Origin: Halostagnicola kamekurae
GTDB taxonomy: Archaea > Halobacteriota > Halobacteria > Halobacteriales > Natrialbaceae
Assembly: GCF_900116205.1 (NCBI RefSeq)
Contig: NZ_FOZS01000001.1
Span: forward strand, 1 to 64,000
Length of the DNA: 64,000 bases
Reading direction: 5' to 3'
Under the pieces are notes generated by a model. The model had not been told where the DNA came from. It saw only the letters and a program-made list of their open reading frames with translations, and searched no databases. The position numbers were made by a program, and so were the translations under genes. Below, in pieces: positions 5,066 through 25,889 of the stretch. Position 1 is the stretch's first letter; each line of letters begins with the position of its first letter.

Positions 5066-6535
5066 TTACCGATTGAGCGTGTGAATCGCCCGCCCGAGCG
5101 CGTTTTCCGCGGCTTCCATCACGGACTCCGAGAGCGTCGGGTGCGTGTGGATCGTTCGAGCGACGTCCTCGAGCGTCGCGCCGAGTTCGATCGCGAGGCC
5201 GAGTTCCGCGATCAGTTCGGAGGCCTCGGGAGCGACGATCTGTGCGCCGAGGACGAAACCGGCTTCCTCGTCGGCGACGATGCGAACGAAGCCGTCGGAT
5301 TCGTTCATCGTCAGGGCGCGGCCGCTCGCGCGAAGCGGGAACTCGCCGACGAGGGGCTCGAACCCCTGCTCGGACGCTTCGTCCTCGGTCAGTCCGACGG
5401 TTCCGATCTCGGGTTCGGTGAAGACGGCGGCGGGCATCGCCTGATAGTCGATCGCCGAGGGTTCGCCAGCGATCACTTCGGCGGCCACCTGTCCCTCCAT
5501 CGACCCCTTGTGTGCGAGCATCGGTTCGCCGGCGACGTCGCCGACGGCGTAGACGTGTTCTCGATTGGTCCGCGCTCGGTCGTCCGTCGGAACGAACCCT
5601 CGCTCGTCGGTCTCGATACCGGCAGCCTCGAGATCGAGCGTGTCCGAGACCGGTTCGCGACCGACGGCAACGAGGACCTTCTCGGCCTCGATCTCGAGCG
5701 GTTCTCCCTCGGCGGTTTCTAACTCGCCGCCGTCGGCCGCCGGTTCCGCGACGGGGTCGGCGACGACGCGGATCCCCTCGCTGTCAGCCGCGTCGTGCCA
5801 CTCGGCGGCGGTGTAGCCGAACTCGAAGTCGACGCCGAGTTCCGCCGCTCGCTTGCGAACGGGGCGCGAGAGGTGGTCGTCGTAGCCCGGCAGTGCGTCC
5901 TCGAGCATCTCGAGCACCGTCACGTCGGTGCCGAGTTTCGCGAAGACGCCGGCCAACTCCATCCCGATGTAGCCCGCGCCGACGATCACGAGCGACTCGG
6001 GGACCGACTCGAGGGCGAGCGCCTGCCGCGAGTCGAGGACGGGTTCGTCGCCGTACTCGAAGCCGGGGATCTCGATGGGGCGCGAGCCGGTCGCGATGAT
6101 CGCGTCCTCGAACTCGAGGGTCTCGCTGCCCTGTCCCTCGCCGTCGTGTGAGACCCGGACCGTGTTCTCGCCGTCGAACCGGGCAGTGCCCTCGAGTAAG
6201 TTGACCTGATTGGCCTTGCAGAGTTTCTCGACCCCGCTCGTGAGCTGGTCGACGACGCCGTCCTTCCAGTTCATCATTCCCGAGAGGTCGATCGCGGGAT
6301 TGGCGTGGATCCCCATCTCCTCGGCGTGGCTCGCCTCGTGGGCGACGTTCGTCGCCGAGATCAGCGCCTTCGAGGGGATACAGCCGTGGTTCAGACAGGT
6401 CCCGCCGTAGGCGTCGCGCTCGACCAGCGTCACGTCGAGGTCCAGTTGTCCGGCACGGATCGCGGCCACGTAGCCCGCGGGTCCAGCGCCGATTACCAGT
6501 ACGTCCGTGCCAGTTGTGACATCTCCAACGACCAT
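5066..6535 (-). CDS. lpdA: Dihydrolipoyl dehydrogenase (E3)
   Basis: A 489-residue flavoprotein that reoxidises the dihydrolipoyl groups of E2 with NAD. The FAD-binding GAGPAG is at residues 16-21, the redox-active pair is in GGTCLNHGC (Cys47 and Cys52), a second dinucleotide fold holds VGAGYIGMELAG, and the C-terminal active-site motif is HTHPTLSE (about 463-470). The length matches the family. It is the last gene of the 2-oxoacid dehydrogenase operon, 81 bases after the E2 stop, a larger gap than between the other subunits, so it may also have its own expression. All catalytic residues are present. Confidence 0.97.
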   Translation of the reverse strand: MVVGDVTTGTDVLVIGAGPAGYVAAIRAGQLDLDVTLVERDAYGGTCLNHGCIPSKALISATNVAHEASHAEEMGIHANPAIDLSGMMNWKDGVVDQLTSGVEKLCKANQVNLLEGTARFDGENTVRVSHDGEGQGSETLEFEDAIIATGSRPIEIPGFEYGDEPVLDSRQALALESVPESLVIVGAGYIGMELAGVFAKLGTDVTVLEMLEDALPGYDDHLSRPVRKRAAELGVDFEFGYTAAEWHDAADSEGIRVVADPVAEPAADGGELETAEGEPLEIEAEKVLVAVGREPVSDTLDLEAAGIETDERGFVPTDDRARTNREHVYAVGDVAGEPMLAHKGSMEGQVAAEVIAGEPSAIDYQAMPAAVFTEPEIGTVGLTEDEASEQGFEPLVGEFPLRASGRALTMNESDGFVRIVADEEAGFVLGAQIVAPEASELIAELGLAIELGATLEDVARTIHTHPTLSESVMEAAENALGRAIHTLNR

Positions 6536-6616
6536 TGTAGTGAGTCTCCGTGTCCGCTCGTGAGTCCGTTCGCCCGCCCGCTACTTCAACGGTAGCGGTC
6601 GAAAATCCGCGATCCC

Positions 6617-8266
6617 CTACTGCAACAGGAGCAGTTCGGGGTCCTCGAGGTACTCCATCAGCGCGTTCGTAAACCGCGCGCCGACCGCGCCGTCGATCAG
6701 TCGATGATCGAACGACAGCGACAGGGTCATGACCGAGCGCGGCTCGATCGATTCGGTGCCGTCTTCGTCGGTGACGACGCGGGGTTTGCGCTTGATCTCG
6801 CCGATCGCGAGGATCCCCGTCTCGGGGTAGTTCAGGATCGGCGTCGCGTACTCGCCGCCGATGCCGCCGACGTTCGTGATCGTGAACGTCGATCCCTGCA
6901 GTTCATCGGGCGAGATCGAGCGCTCTCGAGCCTTCTGGACGAGTTCGTTCGTCTCCGAGGCGATCTGGAGCAGTCCTTTCTCGTCCGCGTCGTCGACGAC
7001 GGGGACCATCAGGCCGACGTCGGTCGCCGTCGCGACGCCGATGTTGTAGTAATTCCGGTAGACGATCTCCTCGTTTTCCTCGTCGATCACCGCGTTCATC
7101 TCGGGGAACTCCTCGAGGGCGGCGACGACGGCTTTCGTGATGAAGGGCATGTAGGTTAGTTTGATCCCTTCCTCGGCCGCGCGCGGTTTGAGTCGCTCCC
7201 GGAGTTCGACGAGCTCGGTGACGTCGACCTCGTCGTGGTGGGTGACGTGTGGCGCGCTGTACTTCGATTCGACCATCGCGTCGGCGATGGCCTTTCGGAC
7301 GCCTTTGAACGGCTCTCTGCGCTCGCGTTCGCCCTCGAAACTATCGGCGGTTGCTTCGGTAGACGAAACGGCGGCCGCGTCGGCCTCCTGAGCCTCACGC
7401 TGCATCGTTGCGTACTCCGTTACCGCCTCCGGCGTCACGAACGGCTCGCCGTCCCGCGTCTCATCCGTCGGCACGGTGTCGATGTCGATTCCTTCCTCCT
7501 CGGCGAGCCGACGCGTCGCGGGTGCCGCCAGCGTTCGCTCGCGGTCGGCCGACTCGGCGAACTCCTGCGGAGTGGCCGTCTCGCCGGCCGCATCAGCGAT
7601 CGCACTCGAGTCTGCAGTGTCGGATTCGCCTCCGGAATCGGCGTTGGGCTCGGCCCCAGAACTGGCGTCGGCGCTCGAGGCCGACTCGTCGTCCGACGAG
7701 TCCGAACTACCGTCCGAAGCGTCGGAATCCGATCGCTCGCCGGCGGCCGCTCGAACGTCGCCGTCGGTGATTCGCCCGCCCGGACCACTCCCCTGGACGG
7801 ACTCTATGTCGACGCCTGCTTCGCGCGCCATGCGTCGCACGCGCGGGGGCGCGAACACTCGTCCCTCGGGCGTTGCGATCTCCTCGATGTCACCGCCCGT
7901 CGCGCCAGGGTCGCCGGCGGGTTCGTCCCCGGAAGCGGACACGGACGCCGAGTCGGCTTCGTGTCCGGTCGTCTCGGCCGCGCTATCGTCATCTTCGGCG
8001 TCTCTGGCCGTCTCCGAGGACTCCTCGCCCTCGACGTCGAACGTGATGATCACGTCACCGACGGGAACGATCTCGCCTTCCTCGGCGCGCAGTTCCCTGA
8101 CTGAGCCGTCGACGGGCGAGGGAACTTCGACGAGGGCTTTGTCAGTCTCGACCTCGGCGACGGGCTGGTCCTCCGAGATCGGATCGCCTTCTTCGACCAG
8201 CCACGAGACCAGTTCGCCTTCGGCGACTCCCTCGCCGACGTCGGGGAGTTTGAACTCGCGAGCCAT
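6617..8266 (-). CDS. pdhC: 2-oxoacid dehydrogenase complex E2, dihydrolipoamide acyltransferase
   Basis: A 549-residue E2. One lipoyl domain lies at residues 1-80 (lipoylated lysine in VETDKALVEV). A peripheral subunit-binding domain at about 133-175 (FAPPRVRRMAREAG) follows. Then come an Asp/Ser/Ala-rich linker and a second region resembling a subunit-binding domain at about 245-290 (LAAPATRRLAEEEG). The catalytic domain runs from about 330 to the end with SFDHRLIDGA. Most E2 proteins carry only one subunit-binding domain. The start lies one base after the E1 beta stop. The acyl substrate (pyruvate or branched-chain 2-oxoacid) cannot be decided, since haloarchaea oxidise pyruvate with a ferredoxin oxidoreductase. 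Confidence 0.95.
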   Translation of the reverse strand: MAREFKLPDVGEGVAEGELVSWLVEEGDPISEDQPVAEVETDKALVEVPSPVDGSVRELRAEEGEIVPVGDVIITFDVEGEESSETARDAEDDDSAAETTGHEADSASVSASGDEPAGDPGATGGDIEEIATPEGRVFAPPRVRRMAREAGVDIESVQGSGPGGRITDGDVRAAAGERSDSDASDGSSDSSDDESASSADASSGAEPNADSGGESDTADSSAIADAAGETATPQEFAESADRERTLAAPATRRLAEEEGIDIDTVPTDETRDGEPFVTPEAVTEYATMQREAQEADAAAVSSTEATADSFEGERERREPFKGVRKAIADAMVESKYSAPHVTHHDEVDVTELVELRERLKPRAAEEGIKLTYMPFITKAVVAALEEFPEMNAVIDEENEEIVYRNYYNIGVATATDVGLMVPVVDDADEKGLLQIASETNELVQKARERSISPDELQGSTFTITNVGGIGGEYATPILNYPETGILAIGEIKRKPRVVTDEDGTESIEPRSVMTLSLSFDHRLIDGAVGARFTNALMEYLEDPELLLLQ

Positions 8267-19867: not shown

Positions 19868-19930
19868 ACGTGACTCCCACCACGACGCCGGTCAAAACGC
19901 TGGGGGTGGCGTACGCGAGCCCCCGAAATA

Positions 19931-19942
19931 CACATATATATT
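19931..19942 (+). promoter_or_regulatory. TATA box of the DyP-like gene
   Basis: CACATATATATT lies 23-34 bases before the GTG start at 19965. The transcript would then begin at or very near the GTG, that is, leaderless, which is common in haloarchaea. This supports the GTG over the far upstream in-frame start at 19812, which runs through the neighbouring gene's promoter. Confidence 0.65.
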
Positions 19943-19964: not shown

Positions 19965-21251
19965 GTGACGGTTCCCGAGCGACGCGGACTCACCAGACGA
20001 GACTACCTCCGAGCGGTCGTGGCGGTCGGCGGTGCCAGCGCCATCAGCGCCTGTCTCGACGAGCGCGGGGAGGTCGACGTGCCCGCCGGAACCAACGACC
20101 CCGGCTCGCTTCCGGCGCGCCAACACGCCTGGAACGAGTTTCTCGAGACCGACGACGACGGCAACGTTCGACCGCCGGAACACCACGTGCTAGTGGCGCT
20201 CTCGCTCGCGGACGATCCCGCCGGTGAGAACGATGGTGATTCGCTCGAGGAGGCGACCGAAACGGTCGAGGAGAGCCTGCGGACGCTCGAGCGGGCCTAC
20301 GAGTGGAGCAACGACGGGCTGTTGTTCACGGTGGGGTACACGCCGTCGTACTTCGATCGATTCGACGGGAAGCTCCCTGAAACGGTCGATCTCCCCGCGC
20401 CGGAAGCGCTGACGGACCGCGAGGACCCCGCGTTCGACGAGTTCGACGCACTGCTCCACCTCGCCAGCGATCACCCCGAGGTCGTGCTCCGGGCCGAAGA
20501 AGCGCTCTTCGGCGAGCTCGAGACGGTAAACGGCGAGCCCGTCGAGACGGACCTGACGGGCGTGTTCGACCGACTCGAGGAGCGTCGCCGAACCGGGTTC
20601 GTGGGACCGGGGTTGCCAGCCGAGCACACCGACGTCGACGGCGTTCCGGACTCGGTGCCGGAGGAGGCTCCGTTTTTCATGGGCTTTCGATCCGGCTTTC
20701 AGGAGAGTCAGGCGACCGAAGACCGCGTCACGATCCGGGACGGGCCCTTCGCCAGCGGGGCGACCCAGCAGCTCTCGTCGCTCGACATCCAGCTCGACGT
20801 CTGGTTCGAACAGGAAAGCCACGCCCAGCGCGTGATGAAGACGTTCAGCCCGGACCACGACGAGGATCAGGTCGGCGATATTGGCGAAGCGCTCGAGATC
20901 TCGAACGGACTCACCGACGAGCAGATCGACGACACCGAGTCAGACGCGCGAAATCGCGGCGTCGTCGGCCACGCCCAGAAGGCGGCGCGAGCGCGCGAGG
21001 ACGGCGAGCCGATCATCCTTCGGCGGGATTTCAACACGGTCGACGGCGACACCCCCGGCACGCATTTCCTGTCCCTCCAGCGGGAGATGGATGACTTCCT
21101 CTCGGTTCGAGAGGCGATGACGGGGGCCGACCTCGACGTGGGGATCATTCAGAACAACGGCATTCTGGGCTACATCTTCGTCGGTCGGCGCGGGAACTAC
21201 CTCCTCCCGCCCCGGTCGCACCGGGCGCTTCCGACGCCGAGTCCCGACTGA
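19965..21251 (+). CDS. Tat-exported DyP-peroxidase-like lipoprotein (DUF7405-like)
   Basis: A 428-residue protein. The N-terminus has a twin-arginine motif (TRRDYLRAV, Arg11-Arg12) and a lipobox ending at Cys30 (AISAC), so it should be an exported membrane-anchored lipoprotein. The C-terminal half carries DyP/EfeB landmarks: a likely proximal haem ligand His336 (VGHAQKAAR), LRRDFN and FLSLQREMDDF. The motif corresponding to catalytic GFRDG reads GFRSG (240-244), with Ser243 in place of the Asp. It starts a cluster with an iron-transport lipoprotein, suggesting a role in haem or iron handling rather than classical peroxidase chemistry. The DUF number is recalled, not checked. Confidence 0.75.
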   Translation: MTVPERRGLTRRDYLRAVVAVGGASAISACLDERGEVDVPAGTNDPGSLPARQHAWNEFLETDDDGNVRPPEHHVLVALSLADDPAGENDGDSLEEATETVEESLRTLERAYEWSNDGLLFTVGYTPSYFDRFDGKLPETVDLPAPEALTDREDPAFDEFDALLHLASDHPEVVLRAEEALFGELETVNGEPVETDLTGVFDRLEERRRTGFVGPGLPAEHTDVDGVPDSVPEEAPFFMGFRSGFQESQATEDRVTIRDGPFASGATQQLSSLDIQLDVWFEQESHAQRVMKTFSPDHDEDQVGDIGEALEISNGLTDEQIDDTESDARNRGVVGHAQKAARAREDGEPIILRRDFNTVDGDTPGTHFLSLQREMDDFLSVREAMTGADLDVGIIQNNGILGYIFVGRRGNYLLPPRSHRALPTPSPD

Positions 21252-21438
21252 TCGCCGTCCCAGCGACCGCCGACAGTACGACGACGCCGGAAGTGCGACA
21301 ACCGTCGACGCCGAAACGAGCATCGATTCCAGACGACCGCGACAGCACGACGACCGCCGATGACAGACGACCATCCGGTCCAGACGACCGTCGGCGGTAA
21401 AGCGAACGGTTACAAACGACCAACGGCTGAGAACGCAC

Positions 21439-22647
21439 ATGGACCGGCGAATCGATCGACGGCGCTTTCTCGTGCAAACGGGCGCGGCGGCGGGCGCTGT
21501 CGCGCTAGCGGGGTGTACCCTCGAGGTCGAGGACGGAGCCGCCGAAGGGAGTGGGGACCCCACGCTACCCCAGTTCTACGAGATTCAGGACAAACCGGAC
21601 GCGGTGTACTTGCCGACACACCGGGAAGCGATGAAGATGCTCGAGCCGGTCGAGGCCGGCGAGTACACGCTCGCGCCGATGCTCTCGTACGTCCATCCCT
21701 TTTGGATCATCAGCGGCGACGAGATCGAGCGCGAGGAGCCCGACGACGGCAACGGCGTCCACCTCATGGTCGTCGTCTGGGACACCGAAACCGGCGTCGT
21801 GCTCCCCGTCGACAGCGGGGCACAGCTTCGGGTCAAGAAAGACGGCGAGCAGGTCGGCTCGCCGCGAACGCTCTGGACGATGATCTCCCAGCAGATGGGC
21901 TTTCACTTCGGCGACAACGTGCCGCTCGCCGACGACGGCACCTACACCGCCGAGCTGACGCTCCCGCCGCTCGACGTTCGCACGACGGGCGAGCTCGAGG
22001 GGAAGTTCGCGGAGACGGAGACCGCCTCCTTCGAGTTCGAGTACGATCAGACCTTCCGCAACGAGGTCGCCACCGGGGTCGAGTACCTCGATCGCGAGGA
22101 GTGGGGCGACCCCGGCGCGCTCGAGCCGATGCGCCACGGTGGAGACATGAACAGTGGGGACATGAACGGTGGAGAGGCGAGCGGCGAGGGCAACGGCGAC
22201 GGCCACGTTCAGTTCTCGGCGCTGCCGCCGGCCGAGGAGTACCCCGGGGCGGGACTCGAGCCGAGTTCCGGCGAGGACGCGGCCACGAGCAGCGACGCGG
22301 TCTTCGTGACACGGCTTCTCGAGTCCGGATCGCGGTTCGTCGAGGGGAGCGAGCGGTACCTCCTCGTCTCTCCCAGAACGCCCTACAACCGGGTTCCGCT
22401 CGCGGACATGTCCATGACGGCCGCGATTTCGAACGGCGAAGCCGCAGATTCCGTCGCGCTCGAGCAGACGATCGACGGCGAGTACGGCATCCACTACGGG
22501 GCCGCGCTCGCGGGCGTCGAACCGGGTTCGAGGGTGACGATCGAGATCGACTCGTTCCCGCAGGTCGCGCGCCACCAGGGGTACGACACGGCGTTTTTCG
22601 ACATGCCCCCGGTCGAACTGACGGTGCCGGAATCGATCGACTCATGA
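21439..22647 (+). CDS. P19/Tp34-like iron-transport lipoprotein (DUF7350-like)
   Basis: A 402-residue exported protein. The Tat motif is RRRFLV (residues 7-12) and the lipobox ends at Cys26 (ALAGC). The N-terminal half resembles periplasmic Fe/Cu-binding P19/Tp34 proteins: PMLSYVHPFWI, VHLMVVVWD and GFHFGDNVPL. A Met/His/Gly-rich stretch at about 233-248 (MRHGGDMNSGDMNGG) may bind copper or iron. The C-terminal half is a second beta domain without recognised family. Its stop overlaps the next start (ATGA). The family call rests on motif resemblance. Confidence 0.65.
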   Translation: MDRRIDRRRFLVQTGAAAGAVALAGCTLEVEDGAAEGSGDPTLPQFYEIQDKPDAVYLPTHREAMKMLEPVEAGEYTLAPMLSYVHPFWIISGDEIEREEPDDGNGVHLMVVVWDTETGVVLPVDSGAQLRVKKDGEQVGSPRTLWTMISQQMGFHFGDNVPLADDGTYTAELTLPPLDVRTTGELEGKFAETETASFEFEYDQTFRNEVATGVEYLDREEWGDPGALEPMRHGGDMNSGDMNGGEASGEGNGDGHVQFSALPPAEEYPGAGLEPSSGEDAATSSDAVFVTRLLESGSRFVEGSERYLLVSPRTPYNRVPLADMSMTAAISNGEAADSVALEQTIDGEYGIHYGAALAGVEPGSRVTIEIDSFPQVARHQGYDTAFFDMPPVELTVPESIDS

Positions 22648-23273
22648 CGGCGACGCGCACTCGAGTCGCAGTCGCGCTCGCAGTCCTGCTGCTTGCCGCC
22701 GGCCTCCTCGCCGCGCCGGCCAGCGCCGGACACAGCCCCGGCGTCTACAGCTTCGAACCGGACGACGCACGCGTGGCCGCCGGCGAAACCGTCGCGGTCG
22801 ACGTCATCCTCGCGGCCAACCGGACCCCCGCCGGCGACGGGCTCAGCGAGGCGGGCTTCACCGTCGACTACGACGCGGATCGGTTCTCGGTCGTCGACGT
22901 CGAACACGGCTCGTGGTTCGAAGATGGCGACGAGCCGCCGGAAGGGGCGATCGACCGCTCCAGCGCGGTCGACGAGGACGCGGGCACCGTCTCGGTCGAA
23001 ACCGCACTCGAGTCGCCCGACGACGGGGTGGCGAACACCGCACCCGTCGCGACGATCACGTTCCGGGCCAGCGAGGACGCCGCCGACGGCGAGAGCAAGC
23101 TCGCGTTCGCGAACAGCTCCGCGGCGACGCCCGCGAGTCCGTCGCCGACCATTACCAACGAGGGGACCCTCGAGGTCGGCGAGGGCGTGCTGGGCGCGAG
23201 CGGGTTCGGCGTGCCGGTCGCGGTCGGATCGCTGTTGCTCGCTGTTCTCGTTGGTCTCCGACGACGAGGATAA
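22644..23273 (+). CDS. Secreted cohesin-domain protein with C-terminal anchor
   Basis: A 209-residue protein. A Sec-type signal (about residues 1-28, ending PASAG) is followed by a cohesin-like beta-sandwich at about 35-165 (GFTVDYDADRFSVVDVEHG, ATITFRA). A C-terminal hydrophobic segment ending LRRRG resembles the anchor tails of haloarchaeal surface proteins. Cohesin folds mediate protein-protein contact, so it may tether its two co-transcribed lipoprotein neighbours at the cell surface. The ATG overlaps the previous stop. Confidence 0.75.
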   Translation: MTATRTRVAVALAVLLLAAGLLAAPASAGHSPGVYSFEPDDARVAAGETVAVDVILAANRTPAGDGLSEAGFTVDYDADRFSVVDVEHGSWFEDGDEPPEGAIDRSSAVDEDAGTVSVETALESPDDGVANTAPVATITFRASEDAADGESKLAFANSSAATPASPSPTITNEGTLEVGEGVLGASGFGVPVAVGSLLLAVLVGLRRRG

Positions 23274-24953: not shown

Positions 24954-25889
24954 ATGAACGAACACGAGTCGGCCCACGATGGCTCACACGATGACCACAA
25001 TCACGGACATGGGAGATCATCGACGAGTAGCTGGAAACTAGCTGCCGTCTCGGTCATCAACCTCCTCGGATTCCTCGCTGAACTTGCTGGCGGTCTACTG
25101 TTTGGTTCAGTTGCGCTCCTGAGCGACGCCTTTCACATGCTATTTGACGCGCTCGCGTACGTGATGGCGTTCGCTGCCGCCCACATCGCCGACAACTATG
25201 GAGATAGTGATCGCTGGTCGTACGGTCTCCATCGTCTCGAACCGCTTGCCGCCTTCCTCAACGGCCTTTTATTGCTGCCGATGGTCGGGTTCATCCTCTG
25301 GGAATCCTACCAGCGATTTCTTGAGCCGGTGGCAATCGGAACTGGCCCCACGCTCGCCATCGCAACGGGTGGCCTACTGGTCAACATCGGCTCGGTATAC
25401 GTCCTACAGGGCGGCGGGATGAGCCTCAACGAACGAGGGGCGTTCTACCACCTTCTCGGCGATGCCGGTGGCTCAGTTGCCGTTATTATCTCTACGGTTG
25501 TTATCGAGATGACTGGACTCCAGATCATTGACCCAATCGTCGCAGGGCTAATCGCTGTCGTCATTACATGGTCGGCGGGGAAAGTACTCCGTGGGAGCAG
25601 TGCGATCTTCCTACACCGGACGCCATTCGAGCAGCACGAGGTACGGGCCATCCTGCGGAAGGTCAATGGCGTGACCGCCGTAGACGACCTGCATGTATGG
25701 CAGATTTGTAGTCAGATCACGGTCGCCACCGTCCATCTTGAGACCGACGTGGAGACAATGCCTGAAGCCGAGACGGTAACCCGAAGCGTCCACGAGGAAC
25801 TTGTCCATCATGGCGTCGATCACGCCACTGTCGAACTGTGTCCCGGCTATGGCGACCGCAGCACGCACCTGAACAATCACGCCCACTAA
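24954..25889 (+). CDS. Cation diffusion facilitator (CzcD/ZitB-type metal efflux)
   Basis: A 311-residue transporter. The His-rich N-terminal tail (about residues 2-22, DDHNHGHGR) is followed by six membrane segments with the metal-site residues in segment 2 (LLSDAFHMLFDA) and segment 5 (YHLLGDAGGS), and a cytoplasmic C-terminal domain (VDDLHVWQ). HxxxD/HxxxD site residues are typical of Zn/Co/Cd antiporters. It is followed two bases later by a SpoIIAA-like gene. Its AT-rich upstream region and position between repeats suggest it arrived by transfer. Confidence 0.94.
   Translation: MNEHESAHDGSHDDHNHGHGRSSTSSWKLAAVSVINLLGFLAELAGGLLFGSVALLSDAFHMLFDALAYVMAFAAAHIADNYGDSDRWSYGLHRLEPLAAFLNGLLLLPMVGFILWESYQRFLEPVAIGTGPTLAIATGGLLVNIGSVYVLQGGGMSLNERGAFYHLLGDAGGSVAVIISTVVIEMTGLQIIDPIVAGLIAVVITWSAGKVLRGSSAIFLHRTPFEQHEVRAILRKVNGVTAVDDLHVWQICSQITVATVHLETDVETMPEAETVTRSVHEELVHHGVDHATVELCPGYGDRSTHLNNHAH

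Follow-up and report, generated by a model that had tools for sequence, protein, structure and literature searches.

In the window, by which we mean the whole 64,000-nucleotide stretch of Halostagnicola kamekurae DNA analysed here, gene 1 of a three-gene locus encodes a member of the DyP fold superfamily, and genes 1 and 2 form a conserved pair. The near-universal occurrence in the sampled haloarchaea of an exported DyP-fold protein that lacks the usual catalytic Asp, and whose gene usually lies beside one for a P19-like lipoprotein, suggests unstudied extracellular iron handling that operates without the standard permease.

The three open reading frames proposed by the first-pass annotation are present where it had placed them (Table 1). 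Genes 1 and 2 both encode Tat lipoproteins, as it had claimed, with the twin-arginine motifs RRDYLR and RRRFLV and the lipoboxes ISAC and LAGC, respectively; the Tat motif and lipobox residues are invariant in gene 2 homologues and belong to the family consensus for gene 1. The GTG start of gene 1 lies at the same place in ~20 relatives, its TATA-like element is identical in two Halostagnicola relatives (L032 and L033), and its transcript is probably leaderless. Genes 2 and 3 overlap by 4 nt (ATGA), an arrangement that recurs in ~20 Natrialbaceae loci. A Cdc6-like gene precedes the trio and a cation-efflux gene follows it, the latter of CDF type and located 1.7 kb downstream (window positions 24954-25889).

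Table 1. Features of the locus, in window coordinates.
Feature	Coordinates	Strand	Properties and evidence
Gene 1, Tat lipoprotein, DUF7405, DyP-superfamily fold	19965..21251	+	428 aa, GTG start; Pfam E 1.5e-149
Gene 2, Tat lipoprotein, P19/FtrA-type domain plus DUF7350	21439..22647	+	402 aa
Gene 3, secreted cohesin-domain protein with PGF-like C-terminal tail	22644..23273	+	209 aa
Ser243 codon, position of DyP distal Asp (GXXDG)	20691..20693	+	alignment with 10 bacterial DyPs, family statistics
His336 codon, predicted proximal haem ligand	20970..20972	+	invariant; HMM alignments
Arg353 codon, predicted distal Arg	21021..21023	+	invariant; aligned with EfeB Arg347
Gene 2 part matched by P19 (Iron_transport) model	21832..21978	+	19.1 bits; homologues support
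DUF7350 domain of gene 2	22255..22623	+	Pfam
TATA-like promoter element, ~28 nt 5' of gene 1 GTG	19930..19942	+	conserved in relatives; function inferred

Pfam assigns the gene 1 product to DUF7405, a family of unknown function. Its NCBIfam matches to DyP are weak, with the EfeB equivalog model TIGR01412 scoring 11.2 bits against a cut-off of 428, and searches of the window's own genome with PF04261 and PF20628 returned no match, since tests of single sequences against HMMs miss the relation between DUF7405 and DyP. When 108 family members were scanned singly, Dyp_perox_C (Pfam) matched 54 of them at E values up to 1 (best 1e-7), the EfeB model 22 and the DyP model 12. The curated Dyp_perox_C cut-off was passed in 15 of 194 haloarchaeal genomes, and those matches that could be compared by coordinates fell mostly on the same genes as DUF7405.

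The fold emerged from structural and profile comparisons. An AlphaFold2 model of gene 1 built from 108 sequences reached a pLDDT of 92.9; an earlier one, based on just 19 sequences, was of low quality (pLDDT 50) and was discarded. With the later model, the top Foldseek matches were all DyPs (best E 3e-16), and the best 50 matches of VIA, a second structure aligner, were all DyP/EfeB proteins with Z scores of 24.7-26.0, the highest having an rmsd of 2.9 over 282 residues; E. coli EfeB itself gave Z 25.1 over 292 residues. Profile-profile comparison of the family with ten bacterial DyP/EfeB proteins aligned them end to end at 98.6% probability (E 6e-16). Against all PDB sequences, DyPs ranked first for the family profile, weakly (E 0.07), with the His and the Arg-Arg in register. 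The resemblance to DyP is thus not due to chance: Foldseek, VIA and profile-profile comparison agree on the DyP/EfeB fold, an alpha+beta barrel, that the first-pass annotation had suspected, and the fold test set beforehand came out in its favour.

We then considered the active site. In ten bacterial DyP/EfeB proteins, the residues corresponding to EfeB Asp235, His329 and Arg347 are invariant. Profile and MAFFT alignments place the bacterial Asp column on Ser243 of gene 1, within the motif MGFRSGF (the distal-Asp slot of GXXDG), and the Arg column on Arg353, so that gene 1 retains the second catalytic residue of DyPs, the distal Arg. The Asp-to-Ser change noticed in the first-pass annotation is therefore real; it is not peculiar to the window copy, as Ser or Ala occupies this site almost family-wide (89 Ser, 17 Ala and 2 Asp among 108 aligned members; 32 Ser, 19 Ala, 1 Gly, 1 Asn and 0 Asp in a class-spread sample of 53 genomes, most of them picked by genome number). 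The two members that keep Asp (L126 and L127) are long divergent forms of 727-732 aa with inserts, placed by a rough tree inside the DUF7405 family and not at its base; both (L126:4867-7062 and L127:5593-7773) keep GFND, are extended at the C-terminus and carry a large insertion that separates the His motif from the Arg motif.

His336 and Arg353 are invariant in 108/108 and 53/53 members, and Lys339 and Arg354 are likewise found in 53/53 of the class-spread sample. No His other than His336 is strictly invariant in the family. His336 aligned with the DyP haem-ligand His in 39 of 52 matches to an HMM of the bacterial set, although one MAFFT alignment sets it three columns off; its spacing from Arg353 is 17, compared with 15 to 18 in the bacterial proteins. 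The kept haem ligand proposed in the first-pass annotation is thus upheld as a ligand predicted by sequence.

Bacterial enzymes bear on what the loss of the Asp may mean for catalysis. DyPs carry a distal Asp and Arg almost exclusively, a few having Glu in place of the Asp (review, PMC7611857). The D143A variant of the K. pneumoniae DyP (KpDyP) keeps its pocket architecture, is impaired in H2O2 cleavage and yields a compound I that is a stronger oxidant (PMC6153280), whereas in R. jostii DypB it is Arg, not Asp, that is reported to be essential, as cited in PMC8197335. The dependence of DypB on Arg, together with the strong compound I of D143A, implies that a protein without the Asp may still turn over. 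As the distal Asp was tested for and is absent, we do not file gene 1 as a DyP-type peroxidase; its fold is that of DyPs, and given the conflicting Asp/Arg reports for KpDyP and R. jostii DypB, its sequence would lead us neither to assume nor to exclude peroxidase activity.

Gene 2 bears out the P19/Tp34-like partner that had been claimed. The P19 model (Iron_transport, PF10634) stays below its 21-bit cut-off on the window copy alone; all 51 of 51 gene 2 homologues match it (best 4.4e-9) and all 51 match DUF7350 too, and the family profile reaches FtrA and P19 structures at E values of 1.6e-6 to 5e-4. His108, Met110, Met148, Met153, His156, His352 and His379 are invariant in the family. In many copies from Natrialbaceae the two domains are separated by a long linker rich in His and Asp, of which the window copy has almost none. 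No match to EfeO (peptidase M75) was found in gene 2 or in 50 homologues. Judged by these profiles, gene 2 joins a P19/FtrA-type domain to DUF7350, and is not EfeO. Its type and the missing M75 domain make EfeO-EfeB the wrong pairing, so that of the first-pass description as an EfeO-EfeB relative without EfeU, the EfeB-like fold and the missing permease stand and EfeO does not. FTR1/EfeU (PF03239) was found in 0 of 194 haloarchaeal genomes, while the same model matched four control genomes; given this absence across the genomes sampled, an FTR1 permease cannot be what the pair supplies.

DUF7405 occurs in 172 and DUF7350 in 167 of the 194 haloarchaeal genomes (about 86-89%). The counts, together with the genomes listed, imply that DUF7350 never occurs there without DUF7405; five genomes have DUF7405 alone, three of them with only divergent paralogues. 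Co-occurrence is strong (Fisher p 1e-24, not corrected for phylogeny), and joint absences are spread over several genera. Genes 1 and 2 lie within 5 kb of each other in 41 of the 53 class-spread genomes (as direct neighbours in 29, up to 4.8 kb apart in 12) and not close together in the other 12; they are also close in ~65 of the best 80 GTDB loci, a set biased towards Natrialbaceae. Haloferax volcanii carries both families, and a sample of the phylum outside Halobacteria contained DUF7405 in 0 of ~124 genomes.

The survey of three-gene clustering thus supports the association of genes 1 and 2, which gene 3 shares only in Natrialbaceae and a few others. The cohesin gene is present in 5 of 53 class-spread loci, as a lineage-restricted companion, and follows in at least 22 of the best 80 GTDB loci, which are Natrialbaceae-biased; the neighbourhood comparison used a composition-filtered gene set, which missed gene 3 of the window. 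In six loci (L063, L065, L066, L069, L086 and L128) the place just downstream of gene 2 is taken not by the cohesin gene but by one for a small Tat lipoprotein that has HWHF-like motifs; the one copy examined, that of L065, had no Pfam or NCBIfam match.

Other neighbourhoods vary. A menaquinone cluster (NCBIfam) surrounds the genes in ~two dozen loci of Natrialbaceae, with isochorismate synthase, menD and menB before them and menA and menE after them, whereas the neighbours at the window locus are other genes; we put a menaquinone-related function low, as this synteny is confined to one lineage. No transporter consistently adjoins the pair. In Natrinema (L067:11369-12853) gene 2 is not adjacent, and the next gene after gene 1 encodes a Tat protein with a plastocyanin-like copper domain at its end. 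Several DUF7405 paralogues (L112, L113, L115 and L118-L121, ~6000-7000) are flanked on one side by genes for formate dehydrogenase alpha, an HdrA-like protein and a TorD-type chaperone and on the other by AOR and MobA genes, suggesting a redox setting. A second class (L116, L117 and L122-L125, ~6000-7000) directly adjoins a gene for a secreted UnbV_ASPIC/FG-GAP protein. From both kinds of neighbour we conclude that the family is used in several settings. One genome holds several broken DUF7405 fragments side by side, apparently a decaying tandem array (G113:C1:1559155-1563507).

Taking these data together, we tentatively favour a surface module for iron or haem handling, composed of an EfeB-like fold and a P19-like partner and working without FTR1. 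EfeB and P19 each belong to known bacterial ferrous-iron uptake systems (PMC9174327), and it is from the P19-like partner and these known roles of both bacterial parts that we infer, by analogy, an iron function for the pair. The mechanism starts from what was computed (fold, residues, pairing, distribution, export signals and the lack of FTR1) and supposes haem loading, iron as the substrate, a direction of electron flow and an importer. Genes 1 and 2 would form a lipid-anchored protein pair outside the haloarchaeal membrane that most likely captures and processes extracytoplasmic iron. Gene 1 would be a DyP-superfamily haem protein with a proximal His336, a distal Arg353 and Ser in place of the acid-base Asp, which might either alter the oxidation state of iron, using H2O2 at a slow rate or a different oxidant, or free iron from haem, the role that has been proposed for EfeB. 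The gene 2 protein would hold a metal ion at its P19-type His/Met site, and probably also through DUF7350, keep it and hand it to an importer other than FTR1.

This iron reading is favoured by the DyP fold with its invariant His336 and Arg353, by the P19/FtrA homology with invariant His/Met residues and the His/Asp-rich linker of many Natrialbaceae, by the finding that DUF7350 never occurs without DUF7405, by the proximity of the two genes and by the absence of FTR1 from the genomes sampled. Against it speak four observations. A search with a DtxR/FerR-like palindrome gave matches at chance level and none near the operon. In the iron-starvation proteome of Haloferax volcanii, compared by name and not by gene number, no protein of this kind is mentioned among changes of at least 10-fold (PMC11349517). 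The pair has no consistently adjoining transporter, and the paralogues beside formate dehydrogenase and UnbV/FG-GAP genes indicate that the family is linked to more than iron.

Two alternatives concern gene 1 itself. It is rather unlikely, in our estimate, that the protein is a pseudo-peroxidase whose binding of haem or another porphyrin serves to store, transfer or sense it without redox turnover, with gene 2 accepting the metal or haem. The family-wide loss of the distal Asp alongside a kept haem-ligand His and Arg (which contacts a propionate in DyPs) would fit such a role, as would the intact architecture and impaired H2O2 cleavage of KpDyP D143A (PMC6153280); the stronger oxidant formed by that same variant (PMC6153280), the Arg requirement reported for DypB (cited in PMC8197335) and the two members retaining Asp all argue against it. 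We likewise consider it unlikely that gene 1 is an Arg-dependent extracellular peroxidase removing H2O2 or oxidizing organic compounds, with gene 2 as a Cu/Fe partner in stress or redox functions and not in iron acquisition. Here the invariant distal Arg, the paralogues in redox gene clusters, the menaquinone-cluster location and the cupredoxin-domain protein encoded next to gene 1 in Natrinema are set against a conserved partner that is P19-like, a menaquinone context confined to one lineage and the missing Asp that most studied DyPs need.

The third gene had been taken as a possible surface scaffold. That it unites both lipoproteins through cohesin-dockerin-like contacts we regard as very improbable: a Pfam Cohesin domain (E 3e-10, 40.9 bits, above cut-off) and the recurring gene 2/3 overlap speak for it, but the cohesin gene is rare in the class-spread loci, Pfam finds no dockerin in the gene 1 or gene 2 protein, and the single dockerin-like match in the window's genome scores 22.7 bits against a cut-off of 22.9, leaving none above it. 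Gene 3 is secreted and ends in a (P)GF-transmembrane-Arg tail, which we take to resemble archaeosortase substrates.

It is possible, if doubtful, that the favoured iron module is a class-wide haloarchaeal route of iron or haem acquisition, made up of an Asp-less DyP-fold protein, a P19-DUF7350 lipoprotein and a non-FTR1 importer. If true, it would be a hybrid of bacterial Efe and Ftr logics, of which we found no description: literature searches for DUF7405, for haloarchaea with EfeB and for haloarchaea with Dyp-type peroxidase returned nothing on point, and text searches of DyP reviews found no mention of archaea. Two Pfam families of unknown function are now linked by homology to known ones and gain a map of the active site as well as a partner; a class with Ser or Ala provides natural variants for the question of which DyP distal residue is needed; and haloarchaeal non-siderophore iron handling without FTR1 becomes testable through a defined gene pair in Haloferax volcanii.

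Compared with known systems, gene 3 resembles cellulosome cohesins in its Pfam domain and differs from them in having a single domain, a PGF-like C-terminal tail and a genome without a dockerin above cut-off. Gene 2 resembles FtrA, P19 and Tp34 (8vv5, 7r3p, 3nrp and 2o6c) in the segment around M..G.H.GDN, which is profile-aligned with FtrA at E 1.6e-6. Unlike these proteins, it is a lipoprotein with an extra DUF7350 and, in many copies, the His/Asp-rich linker, and unlike FtrA/P19 uptake systems it has no FTR1 permease partner (FtrC, FetM). Gene 1 differs from EfeB/DyP peroxidases (E. coli EfeB 2y4e and 3o72, Shewanella TyrA 2hag and B. subtilis 6kmm) in the replacement of the GXXDG Asp by Ser or Ala, in its lipid anchor and in the absence of an EfeU or EfeO partner. 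At ~15-20% identity, it nevertheless has in common with them the fold across the whole mature protein (Z 25-26), the proximal His, the distal Arg and the spacing between the two, and with EfeB it shares export by Tat.
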